In this document: in pieces, positions 16,196 to 58,670 of the stretch | Layout of the letters: every line of letters begins with the position of its first letter | Numbering within the stretch: the first letter of the stretch is position 1 | Source of the DNA: Halichondria panicea | Lineage: Eukaryota; Porifera; Demospongiae; Suberitida; Halichondriidae | Length of the DNA stretch: 64,000 nt | NCBI RefSeq assembly: GCF_963675165.1 | Contig: NC_087382.1 | Location: forward strand, 5,185,963 to 5,249,962 | Direction of reading: 5' to 3' | Notes under the pieces: generated by a model | What the model was told of the DNA's origin: nothing | Seen by the model: only the letters and a program-made list of their open reading frames with translations | Databases searched by the model: none | Translations under genes and position numbers: made by a program

Positions 16196-19100
16196 GTGGA
16201 TATACATACGTCCTCAGTGGCAGCCTGTTTGCATGATGCACCACATTCCTCAACTATACTGATTGTTACTCTGATTCTCTCTGGCTTGAGATTGGTGATT
16301 TCGGAAACTTACTACATAGCGCCAGAAATTTATACCCGTGCATTTAATGGCTCTAGTAACAACACATTTTCGCTCGAGCTACTTATTCAACGAAACCAAT
16401 TTTCTAGCGGAGACAGTATGACTTTGATTTTTCTACCAGGGATTCATCCTCTTAGTCGTTTCCTTACAGTACAAAATTTCACATTTGTGCAGTTGATTGG
16501 AGAGGATAATTCAGTGATACTATTTAAGGGAAACAGTAGTATCCAATTTACTAGCATTGGTCGATTGAACATTCAAAATTTAAATTTTTCATCTGAAATT
16601 GGAACTACTTCGCAAGAAAAACTGACTATTAATGATGTGGCAAACTTTTCAATTTCGGAGTGCTATTTCTCGAGTTTTTCTGATAGCAGTCCTGCTTTAC
16701 TCTATATCAGAAACACACAAAACACTTCAATTGATCATGTTTCGTTCAAAAACAATCTTGCTAGAGCTCTGTATGTACAGTCTGGAAATGCAGTAAGAAT
16801 CACAAATAGTGTGTTCAAAAGAAACAGACATGATGTTGCTGTACAAAGATGCGGAGGATCAATCAAAGTGGATTCAACAAACATTGTCATATCGAAATGT
16901 ACATTTTTGAGAAACAATGCAAGTTATGGTGGAGCAATTTGTGCCCTTCCTCAATCTACTATGTCTATCTCAAACAGTGTATTTGACCGCAATAGTGCTT
17001 CTAAAGATGGTGGAGCTATTTATGTTCATTCTAGTGACGCATACATAACTGATAGTGAACTAACGAGTAACCGTGCAATGTGGGGCGGAGCGTTGTCTAT
17101 CTTTGATCAATCTAATGTGTCAGTTTCAAACAGTTCATTCAAAAACAACAATGCTACAAAATCTGGTGGAGGAATTTATGCTCGTTTTAGATATATATAT
17201 CGCTGATAGTGAACTGACCAACAACAATGCAACATGGGGAGGAGCGATTGTTATCTACAAACAATCGAATATGACGATCTCAAACAGTTTTTTGAAAAAA
17301 ACAGTGCCCAAAAGTTTGGTGGAGGAATTAATGCTCGTTCTAGTATTATATATATCACTGATAGTGAACTAACCAACAACAGGGCCACGCAGGGAGGAAT
17401 GATATTCATCTTTGATCAATCGAATATGTCAATATCAAACAGTTTATTCGAAAACAACAGTGCTTCCGAATATGGTGGAGGAATTTATTCTCATTCTAGT
17501 AACATATACATCGCTGATAGCAAACTAACAAGTAACAGTGCGAAATATACAGGAGGAGCAATCTACGCTGATGAGAGTAACAGCAAAATATTCTCGCTTT
17601 TCAAATGCAACATAACAAACAACAGTGCACATGATTGGGGTGGTGGCGTTTATTATTATGCCTGCAATGCCTACATCGTGAAAACAGTTATAAATGGCAA
17701 TAAAGCCGATTGGGGTGGCGGTATACACATGGAGTTGGGTACCCTTAACATATCTGAAAGTGAACTAACAGGAAATCGTGGTGATTATGTGGCAGCTATG
17801 TACTCCTATTCGAGTGTGTCTATCAGTGATACTGTCATCACAAATAACGTAGCGAAAGCTGGTGCTTTATTCATTCAGCAATCTGTTTTGACATTCCGAG
17901 ATACCAATGTTATCAGCGACAACAGCAAAAGCTCTATATACGCTCTTAACTGTGTAGTTAGATTTGATGGACCAACAAAACTCAATAATAATCACGGCAA
18001 TCTTGGTGGAGCCATCTTTGCTGTACAGAGCCAAATCTATTTTAACGCTGAAATTGGAAAAATTTTAATTGTGCAACAAAAGCTAATTTTGGAGGAGGAA
18101 TATTTCTGAGAGAAACCACGCTATTTGCAAAGTTCCAAAGTACAAATATTCAAGCAATGGAATGAAGACACGACTAGTGGAATATATGTAATGCTACACA
18201 TGGGAAATATTACAGCTCATTCCGGACATGGTGGAAGTATATACGTTGATGATAGTACAGAAATCGGTGGTACTTGTAGAGGTAGGATCACCAACGAATT
18301 GGCTCAGAGCGTTTTCTCTGAATGCTTCATTCAAACTCTCAATTTGTATGACTTGACTCCTTATAATGGCACAGTTTTTGTAAACACATTCCTCACAAAT
18401 AATACAGCCAAGTTCGGATCAAATGTGTATGGAGGTCTTCTGGATAGGTTCACACTCAACCCTTTCGCAGAATTCTATATAGCTTCAAATGGATTGGAAT
18501 ACTTCAGAAACACTTTCGAGTGATTTATCAGTTGCTTCAGACCCGGTGGAAGTAAGTTTGTGTAATGGATCCGAGAACAGTAGTGTGATTATCAGAGGAG
18601 GTATGCTAAAAGTGAATGTTATGGCTGTTGATCAAGTTGGAAATCCAGTTAATGCTACAATTCGAACCTCTGTTATCTCTAAAAGTGGTGTTGGTCGTCT
18701 CAAAGAAGGACAGACAGAACAAAGAGTTGGCAATCAGTGCACAGAAATAGAGTACAATGTATTCGCACAAGACATTGCTGCTCAAGTGGAACTCTATGCT
18801 GATGGTCCCTGTGCTAACCTTGGAAAGTCAACACAGAGTATAAGTATTATATTTCTTTCTTGTACTTGTCCTGTTGGTTTCCAACAAACCAATGATACAA
18901 TCAAATGCATTTGTGGCTGTGATCCAGATTTACAACAACATCAAATCTCCGAATGTTCTCATGATCAAGAAACAGTTCGACTCGAAACTAACATATGGAT
19001 AGGGGTTGATATTAGCACAACACTCAATATGACAAGCTACATAGTTAGCGACTGTCCATTTGATTATTGTGTAGAGAAACCATTTGATGTTGTTCTTGGC

Positions 19101-41908: not shown

Positions 41909-42420
41909 ACGAGTTTTATGTAGGCTACATAAATGGGGTCGACTTTGTCAGCGAGGAAAGAGTCTCTGAGGTGAATGCGTTGCTTGTCTCCCCTGGATTT
42001 GATATAGGGATGCATGGTTCCGGGGTCCACGACTACCACGATGCCAGTGACCAGCTGTTGCTCTTCCAATAGTGCCTTGGTGATGACAGGCACAATGTCC
42101 AGTGCTTCTCTCTCCTCTCCCGACAGCTCATGATCAGCATGTATGTGAATGTGTATTCATTTGGTATATATCATGAGCTGTCGGGAGAGGAGAGAGAAGC
42201 ACTTATATACGCAGTCAATTTAACGTCTGTACAGTATCTATTTTTGTACAAATTAAAGTTGTTCACATTTCCCATAAGCTTAAGTTTATATTTTTGCACA
42301 CATGCATGCATGCACTATATATAAATGTTTACGTAACGTTTCGTTGATGTGTAAGTTAGCTCACCTTCCAACAACATTGTGAGTGCGGACAGAAGATTCA
42401 ATATCACTCGGTTTGTAGCA
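41909..42420 (-). pseudogene. DIP2 3' end relic
   Basis: A decayed copy of the last two exons of the DIP2 gene at 57.2 kb. It reads PVITKALLEEQQLVTGIV and then, with lesions, SRGDKQRIHLRDSFLADKVD. The stop codon is lost (AYIKLV). The penultimate-exon splice region (CACCTTCCAACAACATT) recurs near 42361. Between them 42101-42133 is repeated in inverted orientation at 42171-42203. The source gene is 15 kb away on the same strand. Confidence 0.8.
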
Positions 42421-43011: not shown

Positions 43012-44941
43012 CTAAACAGGCTGTTCTTTAACGAGTCTACAAATGTCCCTGACAACTTCTAAGTCGCTGTGGATCTTAATGCACCCTCTCAGCAGGTATC
43101 GATAAGTGTCTTTGCGATTGGGCTCCCCACGGCCACAGTTGATCTCCTGCCATTTCAGAAGCATCTGATATCCTTTTGTGTGAGCGACGGTGAATCGAAT
43201 GTCGGTTTCAATGTTCTCCAAGTGTACTCTTGTCAGTCCAAGATAGTCGGCATACGTGGACCAGCTGTGCAGGTGCTGGGAGATGGGCAGTAGATGATCG
43301 TGGGAGCACGGCCTGTCCAGTTCTTGAATAGAGATTCCAACTTTTCTTGCCATGTTGTCGATTTGGACATCTGTACCTACATGTATAGAACAAAAACTTA
43401 TAACACGTCCACTGACTACATAAATGAAGGTAGTATATCGAAAGACATGCCAATACAGTACAATCAATCTGCTATAGCTATCAATTAAGGCTTACAGTCA
43501 ATGGCCGATGGTTGCATTGGCGTACTCAACCAGACAGTGTGACTTGGCTTGAGATCCCCATCTAGATCAAAATCTTCAGAACAGCGCCACAGTTTTGTCG
43601 ATACATGCATATCAGCAAAATGGCGTTTGCCTTGTTGTGTTGCTCCTTCGTGTGGGCAGAAGATGCTAATGACTGGCTTGTCGTTGTTGTAGTGAAGTGC
43701 ATCAGAAGCAGCATCTACACCTTCAAGGACACTGGATCTAACTAGAGGACACACGTTCGGAAGCACACGTGGTCGGGCTTTGACATGGACTTCAATACAA
43801 GAGAACGAATCAATGAGAGTGACTGAACCAGGTTCTTTAGGCAGTCGAAATTTGACACAGTTCCTGGCAAGAAGAACTGGCTCTCCAGAAGGAAGACACA
43901 CTTGCCACCCACACTTCTTCATTAGGAACACCACCAAACAACAGAAGACCCCACATCGAATACAGCCACTGACGAATCGGATCAGAAGAGGATCAGCTGA
44001 GGAAGTGAATACACGATGGTGCTCTAACTCAGAGGGTGGAACAGATCTGAGGAGACTGGGCATGAGAAACTCCACTTGAGAGAAGGAGCAATCAATTTGA
44101 CCAAGTAGTGGGATGGTGATAGGGGCTATTATCAGAAGCTCCATCATGATTGCTATCATATCGGCAGGTGTGAAGATGCCATCTTCGTAATGCTTCTGGA
44201 ACTCTTTCGATTCGAGCATATCAATAGTGACAATGCCTCGATCACTGAACTTTAGCCATTTCGCAGCCTTGGCAGAAGTAGAATGAGGGCATGTAACATC
44301 CCTCAGGGAGACAGCATATTCAGTGAGCTCACTGACCTTGTCTAGTGGGACTTGAGGATCCACAAACACAGTGTCGGGCAGGATGTGTGGGTAGTAGTGG
44401 ACAATGCACATGTCATTGAAGTAATCGAGCGCAGCATCCAATGCAGATGGATCAAATCCAAGCTGTTGAGCCAAAGCGATGCACTCACTCTTACTAAGTA
44501 TACCTCTTTTCATGATATCGCAGAGCTTTTGTAGAGCTAATTCCAAGATGAACCACCACAGGGGAACTTTGAGGTCGAAAGTAGGTGAGTTTTCCACTGC
44601 TTTTCGAATTTCTTTGGCAACCTCTTGTGCATTTTTGTCACGACTGCAAGCATTGACGGCAAATATCACATGTTTCAATGGCAGATTGCTGTAGATGACT
44701 TCTTGTTTCAGTTCAAGAGGCAAAGCATCAAGCAAAGCTTGGTTTTTCTCGTCAATAACTTCTTGATCTTTGATTTCGTCGAAGAAAGTGCCCACAAAGA
44801 TGGGGCGTGGTGTGTGCCCATCCTTCTTGCAGGAGAGAAAGGATCGCAGTAAACTCATGTTGGTTTCCAGATACGAGAGGTGAGATTGATATGTGTCTGT
44901 GTATACATTTTTCCCAGGATATTGTACAAACAGAATAAAAT
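43012..44941 (-). CDS. ROCO/COR-like protein with C-terminal death domain (3' exons)
   Basis: Two exons: 43496-44941 (acceptor TTATAG, donor GTAAGC) and 43012-43376 (acceptor TGTAG, stop TAG). Phases agree (1 and 1). The large exon begins inside a Roc-like GTPase region (FILFVQYPGK, then PRPIFVGTFFDEI where Roc domains have the THxD-type guanine motif) and passes into a COR-like helical/winged region (PLWWFILELALQKLC, SECIALAQQLGFD, VFVDPQVPLDKVSEL). The last exon has a death-domain-like fold: LPISQHLHSWSTYADYLGL, MLLKWQEINCG, then YLLRGCIKIHSDLEVVRDIC. Such proteins are common in sponges and cnidarians as candidate innate-immune or apoptotic signalling switches. The P-loop half of Roc is not seen upstream. 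The frame entering the large exon is phase 1, which fits the exon at 48630-48768. Confidence 0.75.
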
Positions 44942-48629: not shown

Positions 48630-48768
48630 CTTGTTTTCTACGTGACTGCTCAGATTCATCAGATTTCCCTCTCAGCTGCTTATCAATGCATGCAAGTTCT
48701 GTCTCCAGATAATGTTTTCGTTCATCAGAGGGTGAGCTCTGTAGCTCCCGTAGCAACTCACCCATTCT
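48630..48768 (-). CDS. Coiled-coil-like exon, 139 nt
   Basis: Acceptor TTGTAG at 48769-48770, donor G/GTAATG at 48629. In phase 0 it reads RMGELLRELQSSPSDERKHY then a Glu/Lys-rich helix (LETELACIDKQLRGKS) and a polar end (DESEQSRRKQ), with no stop. It is the first ordinary exon downstream of the microexon array and leaves phase 1, the phase needed by the exon starting at 44941. The protein identity is not recognised. Confidence 0.65.
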
Positions 48769-49106
48769 CTACAATGAGATATCATTGAGACGAGGATAAG
48801 AGTTATAATGTAAAAGGTGAATGAGGTCAGAGTTCAAGTGGTTGCCAGCTTCGGAGGAGTGAGGACACAAATAACCTTATAATTATAGGCATTAATCATA
48901 ATCTTTTAATGCCATTCTTGGATACGCCCACTCATGTGACCAAAGCTGATTGCCACATGAGTGGGTGTGACCAATATGCAGAGTTATAAGTGTGGAAGGT
49001 TAATTTTCCCACTCCTGGTAAAGCTTTATACATGCAGCTCTTTTCTGGCTCAGGCTATCCTAGCGCTTTAGTGCAAGGTTTGTGCAAACAGATGATGCTA
49101 CATGTA

Positions 49107-49261
49107 CCGTATAGCGGGTATATTTCGAGGGTATAAATTCTCGCGGAAATGCTTTTCATTTTTGTGGAATAGCAGCCTTTTTACAGCGGTTATAAATGCT
49201 CACCATACATGCTTATAATCCACGAAAACCACGAACATTTATACCCTCGAAATATACGGTA
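49107..49261. mobile_element. Palindromic CCGTATAGCGGG element, array unit 1
   Basis: Inverted CCGTATAGCGGGTATATTTC arms. It is present at the same place in units 2 and 3, so it was inserted before the array expanded. Confidence 0.8.
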
Positions 49262-49573
49262 TATACGCGTGACTCTGAAGATACGTATGCAACATGCAGC
49301 CTTCACTGTGATAACTCCAGAAAGAAGCATTAGGTTGCAAATCCACGAAAATAAAGAGAATGGCTAAAAGCCTATAATATTATAGAAGAGCTGTTAGTTT
49401 TCATCGTTGAGCAGTTACAGCTGGTAACATTAAATTTTATCAATCATGCAAACAGATGATATCAATTAAAGTGAGGAATGTAATTTGTTATGCAGACATG
49501 TAAATAGATGCTACAATGAATAACGTATCAAGTGAACACATGTAACGTCATTATACGGCTGTTTACAACTTAC

Positions 49574-49579
49574 CGATAG
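49574..49579 (-). CDS. Candidate microexon G, 6 nt (LS)
   Basis: Minus strand: CTGACTGATTAG, then CTATCG, then GTAAGTTGTAA. Six bases between a conserved acceptor and donor, reading Leu-Ser in phase 0. Six nucleotides is near the lower limit for a spliced exon, so this is the least certain of the series. Confidence 0.4.
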
Positions 49580-49892
49580 CTAATCAGTCAATGGAAGAAA
49601 ATACACGAAACAACCAAGTAAAACGGAACCTCTCAAAATGTACATCATTGATGAAATTTATTGTAGCAATTAAATGCTATCAACTAAATTGAGGTATTTT
49701 CTGGTATGTACAGTTACAGATGCCACAATGAAGTACACGTCAACTTCAGACGAGAACAATAAATCATAGATGCATAGTTCCAACAATAATAAATGTAGCC
49801 CTATGAGGTATCATTAGTAGACAGATGCTACAATGAATAATGTATCAAGTGAACACATGTAACGTCATTTTCTACAGCTGTTTACAACTTAC

Positions 49893-49901
49893 CGAATTTA
49901 T
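49893..49901 (-). CDS. Candidate microexon F, 9 nt (INS)
   Basis: Minus strand: GATTAG, then ATAAATTCG, then GTAAGT. It reads Ile-Asn-Ser in phase 0. The surrounding module matches microexons B to E and G. Confidence 0.45.
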
Positions 49902-50511
49902 CTAATCAGTCAGTGGCACATGTGAGGGAAGAGAATAGAACACATGAAACAACTAAAATTCATCAAAGTACAGCGGAACCAATATGTAAATGTATTAAAT
50001 CAAATTGCAGCTATACATCGAAGAATCTATTTTCTCAGATACACTGAATAAATCCCACAAGCACACGAGTTCGTTATGCTACAAGGTATGCTTTGCTTCA
50101 GTCAAAAGTGCTAGATTGTTACTTCAATCCAATCTTGATTATTCAATGTTAGATTGAAAAATAAGGCCTCCTTCATAGGCCTAGAAAATAACAAGGAGAG
50201 GAAGTTGGTGTGGAGACGAGGATAAGAGCTAAACATTTTATTGTAAAAGGTAGATGAGGTCAGAGTTCAAGTGGTTGCCAGCTTCGGAGGAGTGAGGACA
50301 CAGATAACCTTATATAGGCATTAATCATTAATGCGGATATGCCCACTCATGTGACCAAAGCTGATTGCCATATGAGTGGGTGTGACTAATATGCAGAGTT
50401 ATAAGTGTGGAAGGTTAATTTTCCCACTCCTGATACTTGCAGCTCTTTTCTGGCTCAGGCTACCCTAGCGCTTTAGTGCAAGGTTTGTGCAAACAGATGA
50501 TGCTACATGTA

Positions 50512-50667
50512 CTGTATAGCGGGTATACTTCGAGGGTATAAATTCTCGCGGAAATGCCTTTCATTTTTGTGGAATAGCAGCCTTTTTGCAGCGGTTATAA
50601 ATGTTTGCCATTCATGCTTATAATCCACGAAAACCACGAACATTTATACCCTCAAAATATACGGTAT
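50512..50667. mobile_element. Palindromic element, array unit 2
   Basis: Same insertion as in units 1 and 3, with CTGTATAGCGGGTATACTTC at the left end. Confidence 0.8.
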
Positions 50668-50981
50668 ATACGCGCGACTCTGAAGATACGTATGCAACAT
50701 GCAGCCTTCACTGTGATAACTCCAGAAAGAAGCATTAGGTTGCAAATCCACGAATATAAAGAGAATGGCTAAAAGCCTATAATATTATAGAAGAGCTGTT
50801 AGTTTTCATCGTTGAGCAGTTACAGCTGGTAACATAAAATTTTTATCAATTATGCAAACAGATGGTATCAATTAAAGTGAGGAATGTAATTTCTTATGCA
50901 GACATGTAAATAGGTGCTACAATGAATAACGTATCAAGTGAACACATGTAACGTTATTTTCTACAGCTGTTTACAACTTAC

Positions 50982-50993
50982 CATTCCACCATT
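50982..50993 (-). CDS. Candidate microexon E, 12 nt (NGGM)
   Basis: Minus strand: GATTAG, then AATGGTGGAATG, then GTAAGT. Reads Asn-Gly-Gly-Met in phase 0. Confidence 0.5.
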
Positions 50994-51322
50994 CTAATCA
51001 GTCAGTGGCACATGTGAGGGAAGAAAATATATGAAACAACCAAGTAAAGCGGAACCTCTCAAAATGTACATCATTAATGAAATTTATTGTAGCAATTAAA
51101 TGCTATCAACTAAATTGAGGTATTATCTGGTATGTACAGTTACATATGCCACAATGAAGTACACGTCAACTTCAGACGAGAACAATAAATCATAGATGCA
51201 TAGTTCCAACAATAAATAGCCCTATAATTATGTGGTATCATTAGTGTAGATAGATGCTACAATGAATAACGTATCAAGTGAACACATGTAACATCATTTT
51301 GCTACAGCTGTTTACAACTTAC

Positions 51323-51334
51323 CGATAGCTTTTT
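51323..51334 (-). CDS. Candidate microexon D, 12 nt (KKLS)
   Basis: Minus strand: GATTAG, then AAAAAGCTATCG, then GTAAGT. Reads Lys-Lys-Leu-Ser. Its last six bases equal the whole of microexon G, so the two differ by an in-frame 6-nt indel. Confidence 0.5.
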
Positions 51335-51987
51335 CTAATCAGTCAGTGGCACATGTGAGGGAAGAGAATAGAACACATGAAACAACTAAAACTCATCAAA
51401 GTACAGCGGAACCTCTCAATTAATAATCAATATGTAGATGTATTAAATCAAATTGCAGCTATACATCGAGGAATATATTTTCTCAGACACGTAGCAAGAT
51501 GTTACACTGAAAAATCCCACAAGCACACGAGTTCGTTATGCTACAAGGTATGCTTTGCTTCAGTCAAAAGTGCTAGATTTTTACTTCGATTATCTTCCAT
51601 GTTTGATCGAAAAATAAGGCCTCCTCCACAGGCCTAGAAATTAACAAGGAGAGGAATTTGGTGTGGAGACGAGGATAAGAGCTAAACATTAATTTTTATT
51701 GTAAAAGGTGGATGAGGTCAGAGTTCAAGTGGTTGCCAGCTTCGGAGGAGTGAGGACAAAAATAACCTTATATAGGCATTAATCATGACCTTTTCTTGGA
51801 TCTCATGTGACTAAAGCTGATTGCCACATGAGTGGGTGTGTCCAATATACCGAGTTATAAGTGTGAAAGGTTAATGTTGTCCACTCCTGGTAAAGCTTTC
51901 TTTATACATGCAGCTCTTTTCTGGCTCAGGATATCAAAATATAGCTAGCGCTTTAGTGCAAGGTTTGTGTGAACAGATGATACATGT

Positions 51988-52539
51988 ACCGTATATAGCG
52001 GGTACCGTATATGCTTGATCAGGAGCCGCGGCTACTAAATGTTTCATTTTGCTGGAAGAGGAGGCTACAATTCAAGAGAGGCCACTGTTCAAGAGCGGCG
52101 TTTATTAGCTCCAGATAATTTAGTTTGTCATCAAAAGTTGTTTTCACCTGCATAAACTTGAACTCTGCCATGAGAAAGTCTTTGTGAAGCACTAACAAGC
52201 TGCTACTTGTAGCTACGTACATGTAGCTAGCTGCTAGTAATAATTTTTTTGGCTGCCACGTGCAGAAATGCTAGAGTCAAAGTTCACTGAGGCTACTATT
52301 TGAGAGCGGCTACTAAATGTTTCATTTTGCTAGCAAGGGAGGCTACTATTTGAGTGCGGCCTTTATACAAGAGCGGCCTCTGATCGAGCATACACGGTAT
52401 ATTTCGAGGGTATAAATTCTCACGGAAATGCCTTTCGTAATTTTGTGGAATAGCAACAGCGGTTATAAATGTTCACGGTACATGCTTAATCCGCAAAAAC
52501 CACGAACATTTATACCCTCGAAATATACCCGCTATACGT
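51988..52539. mobile_element. Palindromic element, array unit 3, split by another MITE
   Basis: Left end at 51988 and right end at 52539 belong to the CCGTATAGCGGG element. It is interrupted at TA by the 393-bp element 52005-52397. Confidence 0.75.
52005..52397. mobile_element. Nested TA-flanked MITE, 393 bp
   Basis: Ends CCGTATATGCTTGATCAGGA and complement (CTGATCGAGCATACACGG), with TA duplicated at 52003-52004 and 52398-52399. Units 1 and 2 show the empty site. Inner GAGCGGC and GGCTACTA motifs recur in it. Confidence 0.8.
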
Positions 52540-52852
52540 ATACACACGATTCTGAAGATACGTACTGCAACATGCAGCTTTCACTGTGATAACTCCAGAA
52601 AGAAGCATTAGTTTGTAAATCCACAAATATTATAGAGAATGGCTAAAAACCTATATAGAAGAGCTGTTAGTTTTCATCGTTGAGCAGTTACAGCAGAGCT
52701 GGTAAATTAAGTTTTATCAGTTATGCAGACAATTATTAGCGATTAAACTGAGAAGTCTAATTTCTCATGCAGACATGTAATTAGACGCTACAATGTATAA
52801 CGTATCAAGTAAACACATGTAACGTCATTTTCTACAGCTGTTTACAACTTAC

Positions 52853-52864
52853 CATTCGCTTATA
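52853..52864 (-). CDS. Candidate microexon C, 12 nt (YKRM)
   Basis: Minus strand: GATTAG, then TATAAGCGAATG, then GTAAGT. Reads Tyr-Lys-Arg-Met in phase 0. Confidence 0.5.
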
Positions 52865-53174
52865 CTAATCAGTCAGTGGCACATGTGAGGGAAGAAAATA
52901 CATGAAACAACCAAGTAAAGTGGAACCTCTCAAATTAAATTGTAGCCATTACATGGTATCAACTAAAATGAAGTATTTTCTGGTATGTACAGTTACAGAT
53001 GCCACAACAAAGTATATGTCAACTTCAGACGAGAACAATATAGATCATGGATGCATAGTTCCACAACAATAAATGTAGCCCTATGTGTGGTATCATTAGT
53101 GTAGATAAATGCTACAATGAATAATGTATCTTGAACACATGTAACGTCATTTTCTACAGCTGTTTACAACTTAC

Positions 53175-53183
53175 ATAACGTCT
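53175..53183 (-). CDS. Candidate microexon B, 9 nt (RRY)
   Basis: Minus strand: GATTAG, then AGACGTTAT, then GTAAGT. Reads Arg-Arg-Tyr in phase 0. Confidence 0.45.
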
Positions 53184-53296
53184 CTAATCAGTCAGTGGCA
53201 CATGTGAGGGAAGAGAATAGAACACATGAAACAACTAAAACTCATCAAAGTACAGCGGAACCTCTCAATTAATAATGTAATCAATGTAATCAATGT

Positions 53297-53632
53297 ACCG
53301 TAATTTATCGGAAAGCAAAAATTGGAAATTGTCCGGGTATAATTGAAACAGATTTTTATAGAGCATGCAATTAGAACAAGCAAGCAGCTGCATGCGAGCT
53401 AGCTAAGTTTAATAGAACAGTGTGCGACTGAATAGTTGCACTATAGCTAGCTACTCAAAGCTATCTATAACTGCAGCACTCTAAGTCTTTCTTGCCGTCT
53501 ATGAAGAATGTAACTCAACTTTTCAAGGTATTGTCAGGATATTTAATTAAAGCACAGGATGTCCGTTGTATTAGAACAAATGAATGAAAATTGCCCAAAA
53601 GAGTGTCCGATAATTTAGAAGATATACGGTAA
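53297..53632. mobile_element. MITE with ACCGTAATTTATCGG ends
   Basis: Diverged inverted ends (ACCGTAATTTATCGGAAAGC and GTCCGATAATTTAGAAGATA then TACGGTA). It is inserted in array unit 3 only. Confidence 0.6.
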
Positions 53633-54378
53633 TTAATTAACAAATAGCAGCTATACATCGAGGAATCTATTTTAATTCTTAGACATGTAGCAGGATGCTA
53701 TATACACTGAATAATCCCACCACGAGTTCGTTATGCTATACAAGGTATGCTTTGCTTTGGTCAAAAGTACTAGATTGTTACTTCAATCCAATCTGATTAT
53801 CTTCAATGTTAGAATGAAGCATAGAGATGATTTTGCCTCATTAACAAGAAGAAGAAGTGGGCGTGGGGACGAGGCTTTAAGAAAAGGGTGGATGAGGTCA
53901 AATTTAAAGTTGCCGTTGATTCTAGGTTTAATTTTGTCCACTCCTGATATACATGCAGATCTACTCTGATTGTTGTAGCTATTAAATAGCTATAGCGCTT
54001 TAGTGGAAGGCTAACACGAATAGAAAGTTTGTGTGAACAGATGATGCTATACACACGATTCTGAAGATACGTACTGCATGTACATGACATGATTGCTGCT
54101 CTAAACCACACCCAATTCAGTAAAGTCCAGGAACAAGCTATAGTCCGTCTAGCTAGGCTACAGCAGCCCTGTCCTGTATCCGTCCCTAAAGAAAACCTCT
54201 GAAAAGAGGACAAATGCTCTGCTCCCAAACTGTCCTTCATTCGGAGGTTGCACTCTTTAATAGTTTCTGAGATTTTTACGCAGTTATAGATACTACAAAT
54301 AAGTACACCTCAACTTTGGACGAGAGAACACAATGTTAATATCTTCTATTGCTGCTTACAACTCAGTTACCCGACGAA

Positions 54379-54505
54379 CCGTGTATAGTGCGTATATTTC
54401 GAGGGTATATAATTGCGGTTTTCGCTGATTAAGCATGCATACTGCAAAGGCTGCTGTTCCGCGAAACTTCTTTATTTCCGCAAAAGTTTATATACCCTCG
54501 AAATA
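54379..54505. mobile_element. Palindromic element, array unit 4
   Basis: CCGTGTATAGTGCGTATATTTCG left arm and ATACCCTCGAAAT right arm. It abuts a degraded module (TTACCCGACG) that may be an eighth, disrupted microexon site. Confidence 0.6.
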
Positions 54506-54580
54506 ATTATATCTACAAAAAGTACAACACCTCAACTTTAGACGTAAGAACACACTGATCTTCTATTGCTGCTAATATAC

Positions 54581-54611
54581 GACTTACCCAAAGCTGCTGA
54601 CGCTTCGACTA
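54581..54611 (-). CDS. Candidate microexon A, 21 nt (SKRQQLW)
   Basis: The exon proper is 54588-54608. Minus strand: CTGACTGAATAG, then 21 bases reading Ser-Lys-Arg-Gln-Gln-Leu-Trp, then GTAAGTCG. Phase 0 on both sides. It is the longest and first of the series after the start exon, with the most diverged flanks. Confidence 0.55.
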
Positions 54612-54910
54612 TTCAGTCAGTGGCACATCACATGTGAGGAAAGAGAATAGAATACATGAACGAACTCTGATCCATGAAAGGACAGTAATTGATTCTCTAA
54701 ACACGTTACACAGGTAGGCCATGACTACGAGCATAGATTACTGACAGTTCTATCTATGGTACGAGTGACTATAGATCTATCAAACGTATCTACACTGACC
54801 AATCATGTCAAACCTATAGTACATGCAGTATCATAATGACATGAACATATCACAGTATCATAATGACCTTCTGAATAGTCTATTCTGATAATAAATATTA
54901 ATCAGCTCAC

Positions 54911-54958
54911 CTCATCCTCGGAGTTAGAGTACCCTTCTTCCATTGCTTCAGTCGCCAT
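54911..54958 (-). CDS. Start exon of the microexon gene, 48 nt
   Basis: ATG at 54958, donor GTGAGC starting at 54910, 16 codons in phase 0 (MATEAMEEGYSNSEDE). A diverged duplicate with the same start, donor and upstream sequence exists at 63688-63720, which supports it being a real exon. The Met-Ala start and acidic content fit a cytoplasmic protein. Identity is unknown. Confidence 0.65.
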
Positions 54959-57229: not shown

Positions 57230-58670
57230 TTACAAATTGTAGGCTACATAAATGGGGTCGACTTCGTCAGCAAGGAAAGAGTCTCTGAGGTGAATGCGTT
57301 GCTTCTCTCCTCTGGAGTTGATGGGGATGGTTCCGGGGTCCACGACTACCACGATGCCAGTGACCAGCTGTTGCTCTTCCAATAGTGCCGTGGTGATGAC
57401 AGGCACAATGTCCAGTGCTTCTCTCTCCTCTCCCGACAGCTCAGCCACCACCACCAGCAGGCGATTGGACGAGAATACAGCACTGTATGCGAGTGGGTGT
57501 ATAAGTGAGGGGGTGTATGTGAGTGTATGTGAGTGTATGGGCATGCATGTCTTAGTACAGTCATGTTATGAAGTACTTCTTTTTAATTTTTGTTGACATA
57601 ATTATTTTAGCACACATTCATAACTACATATGTACTGTACGTTTTGTTTATGCGTGGCCACATACATGTACTACTTGTATAGGAGTTAGCTCACCTTCCA
57701 ACAACATTCTTGTGACTGCGGACCACAGAAGCTTCAATATCAGCAGGGTGGTATCGGAACCCTCTAATGTTCAGAGCCTCATCCAACGCCCCCACCACAT
57801 ACACACTGTCGTAGTTAGCTGAAGGGAGGAGGGTGTAGTGATACAATAGTATACTGTGCATATAGCACAGATATACAGCTAGGGACGTAGCCACACTGTA
57901 CACTCAACCGATTGCCTATTTGATTTCTATAGTACCAAAAGCTATGAAAAGTAGCAATCCAATGGCAGAGGTCTATGCTCTATTAACACATGCAATCTAT
58001 TTGTATGTGAGCTTGACAGCTGATAATTTGCGGAGAATCTCACCTCCCTGCCTGTCAGTCTTCTCTGACTTCATCATAAAGCCGAGGTAGCCAGTACGGG
58101 CGTAGTGGACACTGGTGTCCCCTCCACCCTGCACTACTGTCTTGAAGTGCTCCCGAGACAAGGCATCATTGATCTCATCCTTGAGCCCGTAATAACCACT
58201 GCCATTGTGAGGACTGCTCACCCAAATCTATAATTGATTATACATGTACTGCAACTCGTATATAGCCGTACATGTAGGGCATATACATGGTTGTACTTTC
58301 ATCACACAGAGTACATGTACAAGTAAGTACAATAATTAACACACTGTCATAATTATACATGTATGTACACTTCTAACTGCCTATAGAAATCTGCTACTCC
58401 ATTCGATCACACCCACATAAAGAACACCCACCTCTCCCAGGTCCGTGTGGGCACAAGGAATTTTTGTATCTGGGTGGACAATGGTCAACTTCACATCAGG
58501 GAGAATCTGGGGATCAGTCAGCATAATTATTTCGTGATATTTATACAACGCAAATCTAATATTGTACGTGTACATGCACATGTGTTTACGGGGATATACA
58601 TGTACATGTATTATTGACCTTTTCTATTAAAGGTACATGTACATGATGATGCATGTAAATGTGTATGTCT

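Follow-up and report, generated by a model that had tools for sequence, protein, structure and literature searches.

The 64,000-nt stretch of the Halichondria panicea genome analyzed here (contig NC_087382.1, hereafter C6, positions 5,185,963 to 5,249,962; "the window") carries on its minus strand a gene whose 5′ coding part probably includes an array of seven microexons. The gene begins with exon 1 (54911..54958, 48 nt, MATEAMEEGYSNSEDE), which holds the start codon and ends in phase 0. The microexons follow in the order W1 (54588..54608, 21 nt, SKRQQLW), W2 (53175..53183, 9 nt, RRY), W3 (52853..52864, 12 nt, YKRM), W4 (51323..51334, 12 nt, KKLS), W5 (50982..50993, 12 nt, NGGM), W6 (49893..49901, 9 nt, INS), and W7 (49574..49579, 6 nt, LS). 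Exon 2 (48630..48768, 139 nt), with the charged segment RMGELLRELQSSPSDERK, starts in phase 0 and ends in phase 1. The large exon 3 (43496..44896), the rest of a Roc-COR-type exon, can be joined in frame at an acceptor that ends at 44897, and exon 4 (43012..43376) encodes a Death-domain-like end with a below-cutoff Pfam Death match and the stop codon at 43014-43012.

All seven microexons are preceded by AG and followed by GT, and their lengths are multiples of three within the microexon range of up to about 30 nt. A preliminary description of this DNA had placed seven stop-free, in-frame microexons on the minus strand between neighboring exons in phase 0, and re-reading of the sequence confirmed their places, borders, frame and phase. 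With all microexons included, the gene model is open from exon 1 to the stop (677 aa); it is likewise open without any of them.

The same description had proposed a uniform module of ~320 bp, which did not hold. The introns between the microexons measured 1404, 310, 1518, 329, 1080, and 313 bp in order, and the repeat unit was a microexon pair of 1.4–1.9 kb. The array thus comprised three dimers of an A-type (W2, W4, W6) and a B-type (W3, W5, W7) module after one older copy. This first copy, W1, was the most divergent (acceptor CTGACTGAATAG, donor GTAAGTCG), and W7 lacked 12 nt of the acceptor element. There was also a probable dead module at 54340..54395 on the minus strand, recognized by eye from a donor-like GTAACTGAG and, after it, a stretch resembling the downstream flank of W1, with a repeat resembling a miniature inverted-repeat transposable element (MITE) on its acceptor side. 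The array introns held MITE-like repeats, whose inverted ends were TATATTTCGAGGGTATAAA...TTTATACCCTCGAAATATA or similar, at ~49120-49270, 50520-50655, 52380-52530, and 54390-54510, and by eye one of them seems to occupy the acceptor site of a former module.

Judged by eye in the alignment, A and B modules were alike over ~85 nt on the upstream side of the exon and ~80 nt on the downstream side, with little beyond, so that duplication seems to have acted on the exon together with its flanks. This bears on a highly improbable alternative, in which mobile intron copies cut a normal exon into short pieces that were never alike, giving variety without selection. Repeated insertion would fit the conserved ends GTAAGT...TTAG beside unlike exon pieces, and the joined peptide is plausible. 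However, the A/B likeness was centered on the exons and not on whole introns, the exons retained residual similarity (the LS exons were excluded from one test of it), and in the relatives on contigs C10 and C13 described below, exons at the same place differed between genes far more than their introns did. An introner-type origin, marked by whole-length intron likeness together with unrelated exon pieces, was disfavored.

In the assembly (131 Mb, 39 contigs), the region has a tandem duplicate on C6, at a distance of 26 kb. This paralogous gene has its own exon 1 (MATEEGFSVPKDDK, 42 nt), seven microexons (SKLQQFL, the partner of W1, then ERV, NYQP, RGH, NELL, SNIA, and LS), an exon 2, and a large exon with a 736-aa frame and a P-loop. 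It carries GTAAGTTG at the place matching the probable dead module of the window. The frame rule thereby extended to 14 of 14 microexons, all multiples of three and stop-free. None of their 54 codons was a stop, which letter shuffles reached in 1.7% of cases. Two positional microexon pairs differed by exactly 3 nt between the arrays; of the 96 intron indels no longer than 30 nt, 20 were multiples of three. Copies of a DIP2-like AMP-domain fragment (Pfam PF23024; 93–94% identity) at 41919-42130 and 57238-57443 of the window and at C6:5271880-5272085 flank the duplicated gene.

Divergence between the two arrays was concentrated in the microexons. Their introns were 93.8% identical away from exons and 95.9% identical in the 60-nt flanks, and microexons 2–6 matched at 23 of 51 positions. 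Outside that count, the first microexon was identical at 17 of 21 positions and the last at 6 of 6, giving 46 of 78 for all seven.

The splice flanks were distinctive at the genome scale. A scan for ACTGATTAG and GTAAGTTG separated by 3 to 30 nt gave 12 matches in 131 Mb, of which 11 were in the window and paralogous arrays, and the reversed control gave one. The pattern CACATGTNCC, 8–30 nt, AG, 3–30 nt, GTANGTTGT gave 83 matches (two in the reversed control): eight of the 14 modules of the C6 arrays, 74 modules of two classes termed V and X on C10 and C13, and one elsewhere. Exact flanks miss altered copies, and the common pattern revealed further V and X copies. By match length, the V and X modules found in this way were 12 nt each. 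Chance pairing of motifs was disfavored, since the matches were concentrated in the arrays and their relatives and the reversed controls gave only one and two. Because one splice-flank pattern matches both, the C6 modules would most simply be multiplied relatives of V and X. A search for the array elsewhere found none in viral contigs and none in genome contigs.

On C10 and C13, the relatives have up to five classes of short exon between exon 1 and exon 2, in the order V (12 nt), X (12 nt), Y (3 nt), W (3 nt), and Z (42 nt). Two of the classes bear the same splice-flank signature as the array. With a spacing of 1 to 30 nt permitted between flanks (21 to 51 nt for Z), scans found 37 copies of V, 27 of X, 36 of Y, 35 of W, and 33 of Z, 168 in total, and reversed patterns found none. 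Every class had a single length and no stops. On the C6 side, the exon of P6 (AGTAACATTGCG) was close to one X copy (AGTAATATTGAG). In four relatives, exon 1 was in frame (75, 75, 78, and 63 nt) and variable at the end adjoining V. The claim that microexons near the N terminus are hypervariable and in frame thus gained support from the module anatomy, from an independent paralogous array and from short in-frame exons across the family.

The short exons varied strongly among genes. V encoded 33 different peptides in 37 copies, and the single codon of Y specified 11 amino acids among its 36 copies. In Z the variable codons were 1, 4, 5, 8, 11, and 12, and the corresponding residues are placed as on a single face of a helix. 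The third position was the least variable in eight of 11 variable codons. Exon 2 of the relatives was conserved over its first 21 codons (nonsynonymous differences, pN, 0.021; synonymous, pS, 0.060). A local mutational process (error-prone repair, conversion from many donors or a diversity generator) could alter the codons next to the acceptor, with selection acting only as a filter. Both the quiet third positions and the spaced variable codons of Z point instead to selection on amino acids, and we regard such targeting as quite improbable.

At 15 relatives' loci with at least two modules, no class was found more than once and the order was always the same; a class was missing at some loci, e.g., W in L042. 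At these loci the variation therefore lies between genes and not between alternative exons. This bears on the possibility that the window gene is an alternative-splicing cassette, each transcript taking one or some of the seven microexons to give many N termini. The splice sites are nearly identical, all microexons are phase 0, and any subset keeps the frame; tandem duplicates with such similar flanks could compete with each other. However, variation in the family would not require any such choice. In addition, the microexons sum to 81 nt in either C6 array, as a fixed, fully spliced segment would keep, and these equal totals fit, weakly, the inclusion of all seven, although two compensating changes may be luck. 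On balance a cassette seems unlikely.

The family proteins named by NCBI on C10 and C13 begin with the charged segment RRAALQQRLSGDITDQD, which was encoded on these two contigs in 43 of 44 listed places, the 44th being a weak one on C15. The exon for this segment occupies the position of the C6 exon 2, before the same phase-1 junction. A genome search with either type of exon 2 did not retrieve the other. As BLASTP showed no similarity between the two exon 2 types, the C6 genes are tied to the relatives by position and phase, by the large exon and by the module signature. Large exons 89–90% identical to that of the window, at C13:5584158, 5760738, 5829314, and 6023266, lie within ~5 kb of C10-type exon 2 copies, so it seems that the N termini and bodies of family genes have recombined, or that the two diverge at very different rates.

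The window gene is predicted to encode a ROCO-type (Roc-COR) GTPase with a Death-like end, a member of a large family. The Pfam Death scores were 17.7 bits for the window gene (E 0.0041), 21.5 for the paralogue, and 29.8 for the relative P0073 (cutoff 22.6), and the Roc scores were 23.5 bits at best, in P0073, and 12.8 in the paralogue (cutoff 27). The structure model of a relative has the predicted Roc-COR fold. In the model of the relative P0068, residues 2–36 form one helix (predicted local distance difference test, pLDDT, 74–91 by block), which holds Z (13–26) and the start of exon 2, and residues 41–106 form a second; the structure comparison barely covers the long N-terminal helices and the Death-like C-terminal region, where the fold is that of the model only. 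Exon 1 showed no hydrophobic stretch by eye.

The NCBI-named proteins are RefSeq predictions that draw in part on RNA-seq. The model for P0068 uses the donor of Y and the borders of Z, and the acceptor of exon 2 is also used by NCBI models. The first 12 residues of P0068 are probably a misread Y flank.

Taken together, we consider it likely that the C6 array forms the 5′ coding region of a ROCO-Death gene and that its microexon-built N-terminal segment was diversified between paralogues by selection. Phase-0 exons of 1 to 14 codons would be spliced successively between exon 1 and exon 2, and the joined short exons would encode a short, probably helical N-terminal segment. On the simplest account, every microexon would be included in the transcript, which would make the first helix of a helical hairpin at the N terminus longer. 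Tandem multiplication of A/B dimers probably raised the number of modules to seven in the window gene and its neighbor. Dozens of paralogues have kept similar introns and splice signals, while diversifying selection would have driven particular codons apart, and each gene would thereby have its own combination of residues on the N-terminal segment. Most simply, this segment may serve for recognition or pairing as a surface of an intracellular switch in immunity or cell death. One study of H. panicea reports that the expression of receptor genes differs between individuals and that genes for GTPases respond to bacterial lipopolysaccharide (PMC8242945); these genes may or may not belong to the present family. 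A bolder extension is possible but doubtful: about a dozen codons in exons of 1–14 codons, diversified in the germline, might give ~40 ROCO-Death genes each its own N-terminal helix face as a recognition repertoire, to which a choice of splicing on C6 could add a combinatorial layer.

Several observations weigh against diversification of a spliced N-terminal segment by selection. The microexons are known here from genomic sequence alone. A third copy of exon 2 (C6:5414798) showed no array of this kind by motif search or blastn in the 11 kb of upstream sequence that was read, and no BLASTP similarity was found between the C6 exon 2 and that of the relatives. When helical periodicity was tested on the joined residues of the five exons, 302 of 5000 shuffles reached the observed value; full inclusion was not favored, and the period was stronger when Y or W was omitted. 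The flanks were not equally invariant (diversity within 30 nt of 0.110 for X, 0.070 for Y, 0.029 for W, and 0.015 for Z, with L050 excluded because of poor alignment). The pN/pS ratio was 0.76 for V (four genes) and 1.05 for Y; the same-gene repeats L055–L057 were removed for X and Y in this analysis. Those NCBI models that were read on C10 and C13 start in the Y flank (P0068), in Y (P0065), in Z (P0075, P0121, P0122), in exon 2 (P0064), or, for the others, in the large exon. Starts inside these exons would be expected if read aligners lose exons of 3 and 12 nt. A protein search with the joined N terminus found exon 1 plus microexons in none of 174 candidates; a second search gave five of 116 candidates, which matched Z and exon 2 only and none of which began at exon 1.

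The window copy may, moreover, be decaying. It lacks ~1.2 kb present in the neighbor (at 44893-44909), and with it the P-loop part of the large exon, although its frame can still run on through another acceptor. The C6 arrays might accordingly be relics, that is, duplicates in decay in which splicing of the microexons has been lost. The lost P-loop and the module that appears dead would fit this, as would the lack of a joined N terminus among the NCBI-named proteins; none of these proteins was from C6 among the best 120 of 279 matches. However, decay would hardly keep all 14 microexons in frame, stop-free and bordered by AG and GT, nor the window gene open to its stop and the neighbor with its long frame, and we find this explanation improbable. 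Elsewhere in the window, a 156-bp tandem repeat with 3.8 copies was observed at 16951-17541.

Among known systems, Dscam-type genes contain tandem duplicated exons with diverged coding sequence in one gene, and these exons are about the size of part of a domain, similar in length, and mutually exclusive. The sponge array also consists of tandem duplicated exons with diverged coding in one gene, but its exons are 6–21 nt, neither equal in length nor equivalent to one domain part, and choice among them is putative. In venom toxin families, introns are more conserved than exons, which diverge faster under diversifying selection; in the sponge, the contrast is limited to exons of 1–14 codons, and the start of exon 2 is conserved in the relatives. 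ROCO proteins (LRRK1/2, bacterial Roco) and Death-domain AP-GTPases showed 13–14% identity to the sponge protein, and unlike them the sponge family has a probable N-terminal helical segment built from microexons and a large expansion.

The nearest known kind appears to be the micro-exon genes (MEGs) of schistosomes, although the sponge genes are not members. Three reports describe MEGs as having many short exons, most of them multiples of three, with an exon pattern that is repeated within certain genes (MEG-26), rapid amino-acid change and amphipathic helices by prediction (PMC10526429, PMC4350168, PMC5825161). MEGs consist mostly of microexons, and their products are secreted or membrane-anchored, with a variety ascribed to alternative splicing. 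The sponge genes share the symmetric short exons, the repeated exons and the fast change. In contrast to MEGs, their microexons are found at the N terminus only and exon 3 takes up 1401 of 2034 nt in the model of the window gene, the protein looks intracellular, and the variety is seen between paralogues, with single-codon exons amid conserved introns. No report of microexons in H. panicea or of the present gene family was found among the matches listed in the open-licence literature.

If this interpretation is right, a single codon that makes up an exon by itself can be a target of selection, and the exons of 3–12 nt would be a natural experiment in splicing. Standard gene prediction can lose exactly these N-terminal residues, and the ROCO-Death family of an early-branching animal would hold a large, apparently misannotated N-terminal diversity. 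This suggests gene-by-gene tailoring of one small protein surface.

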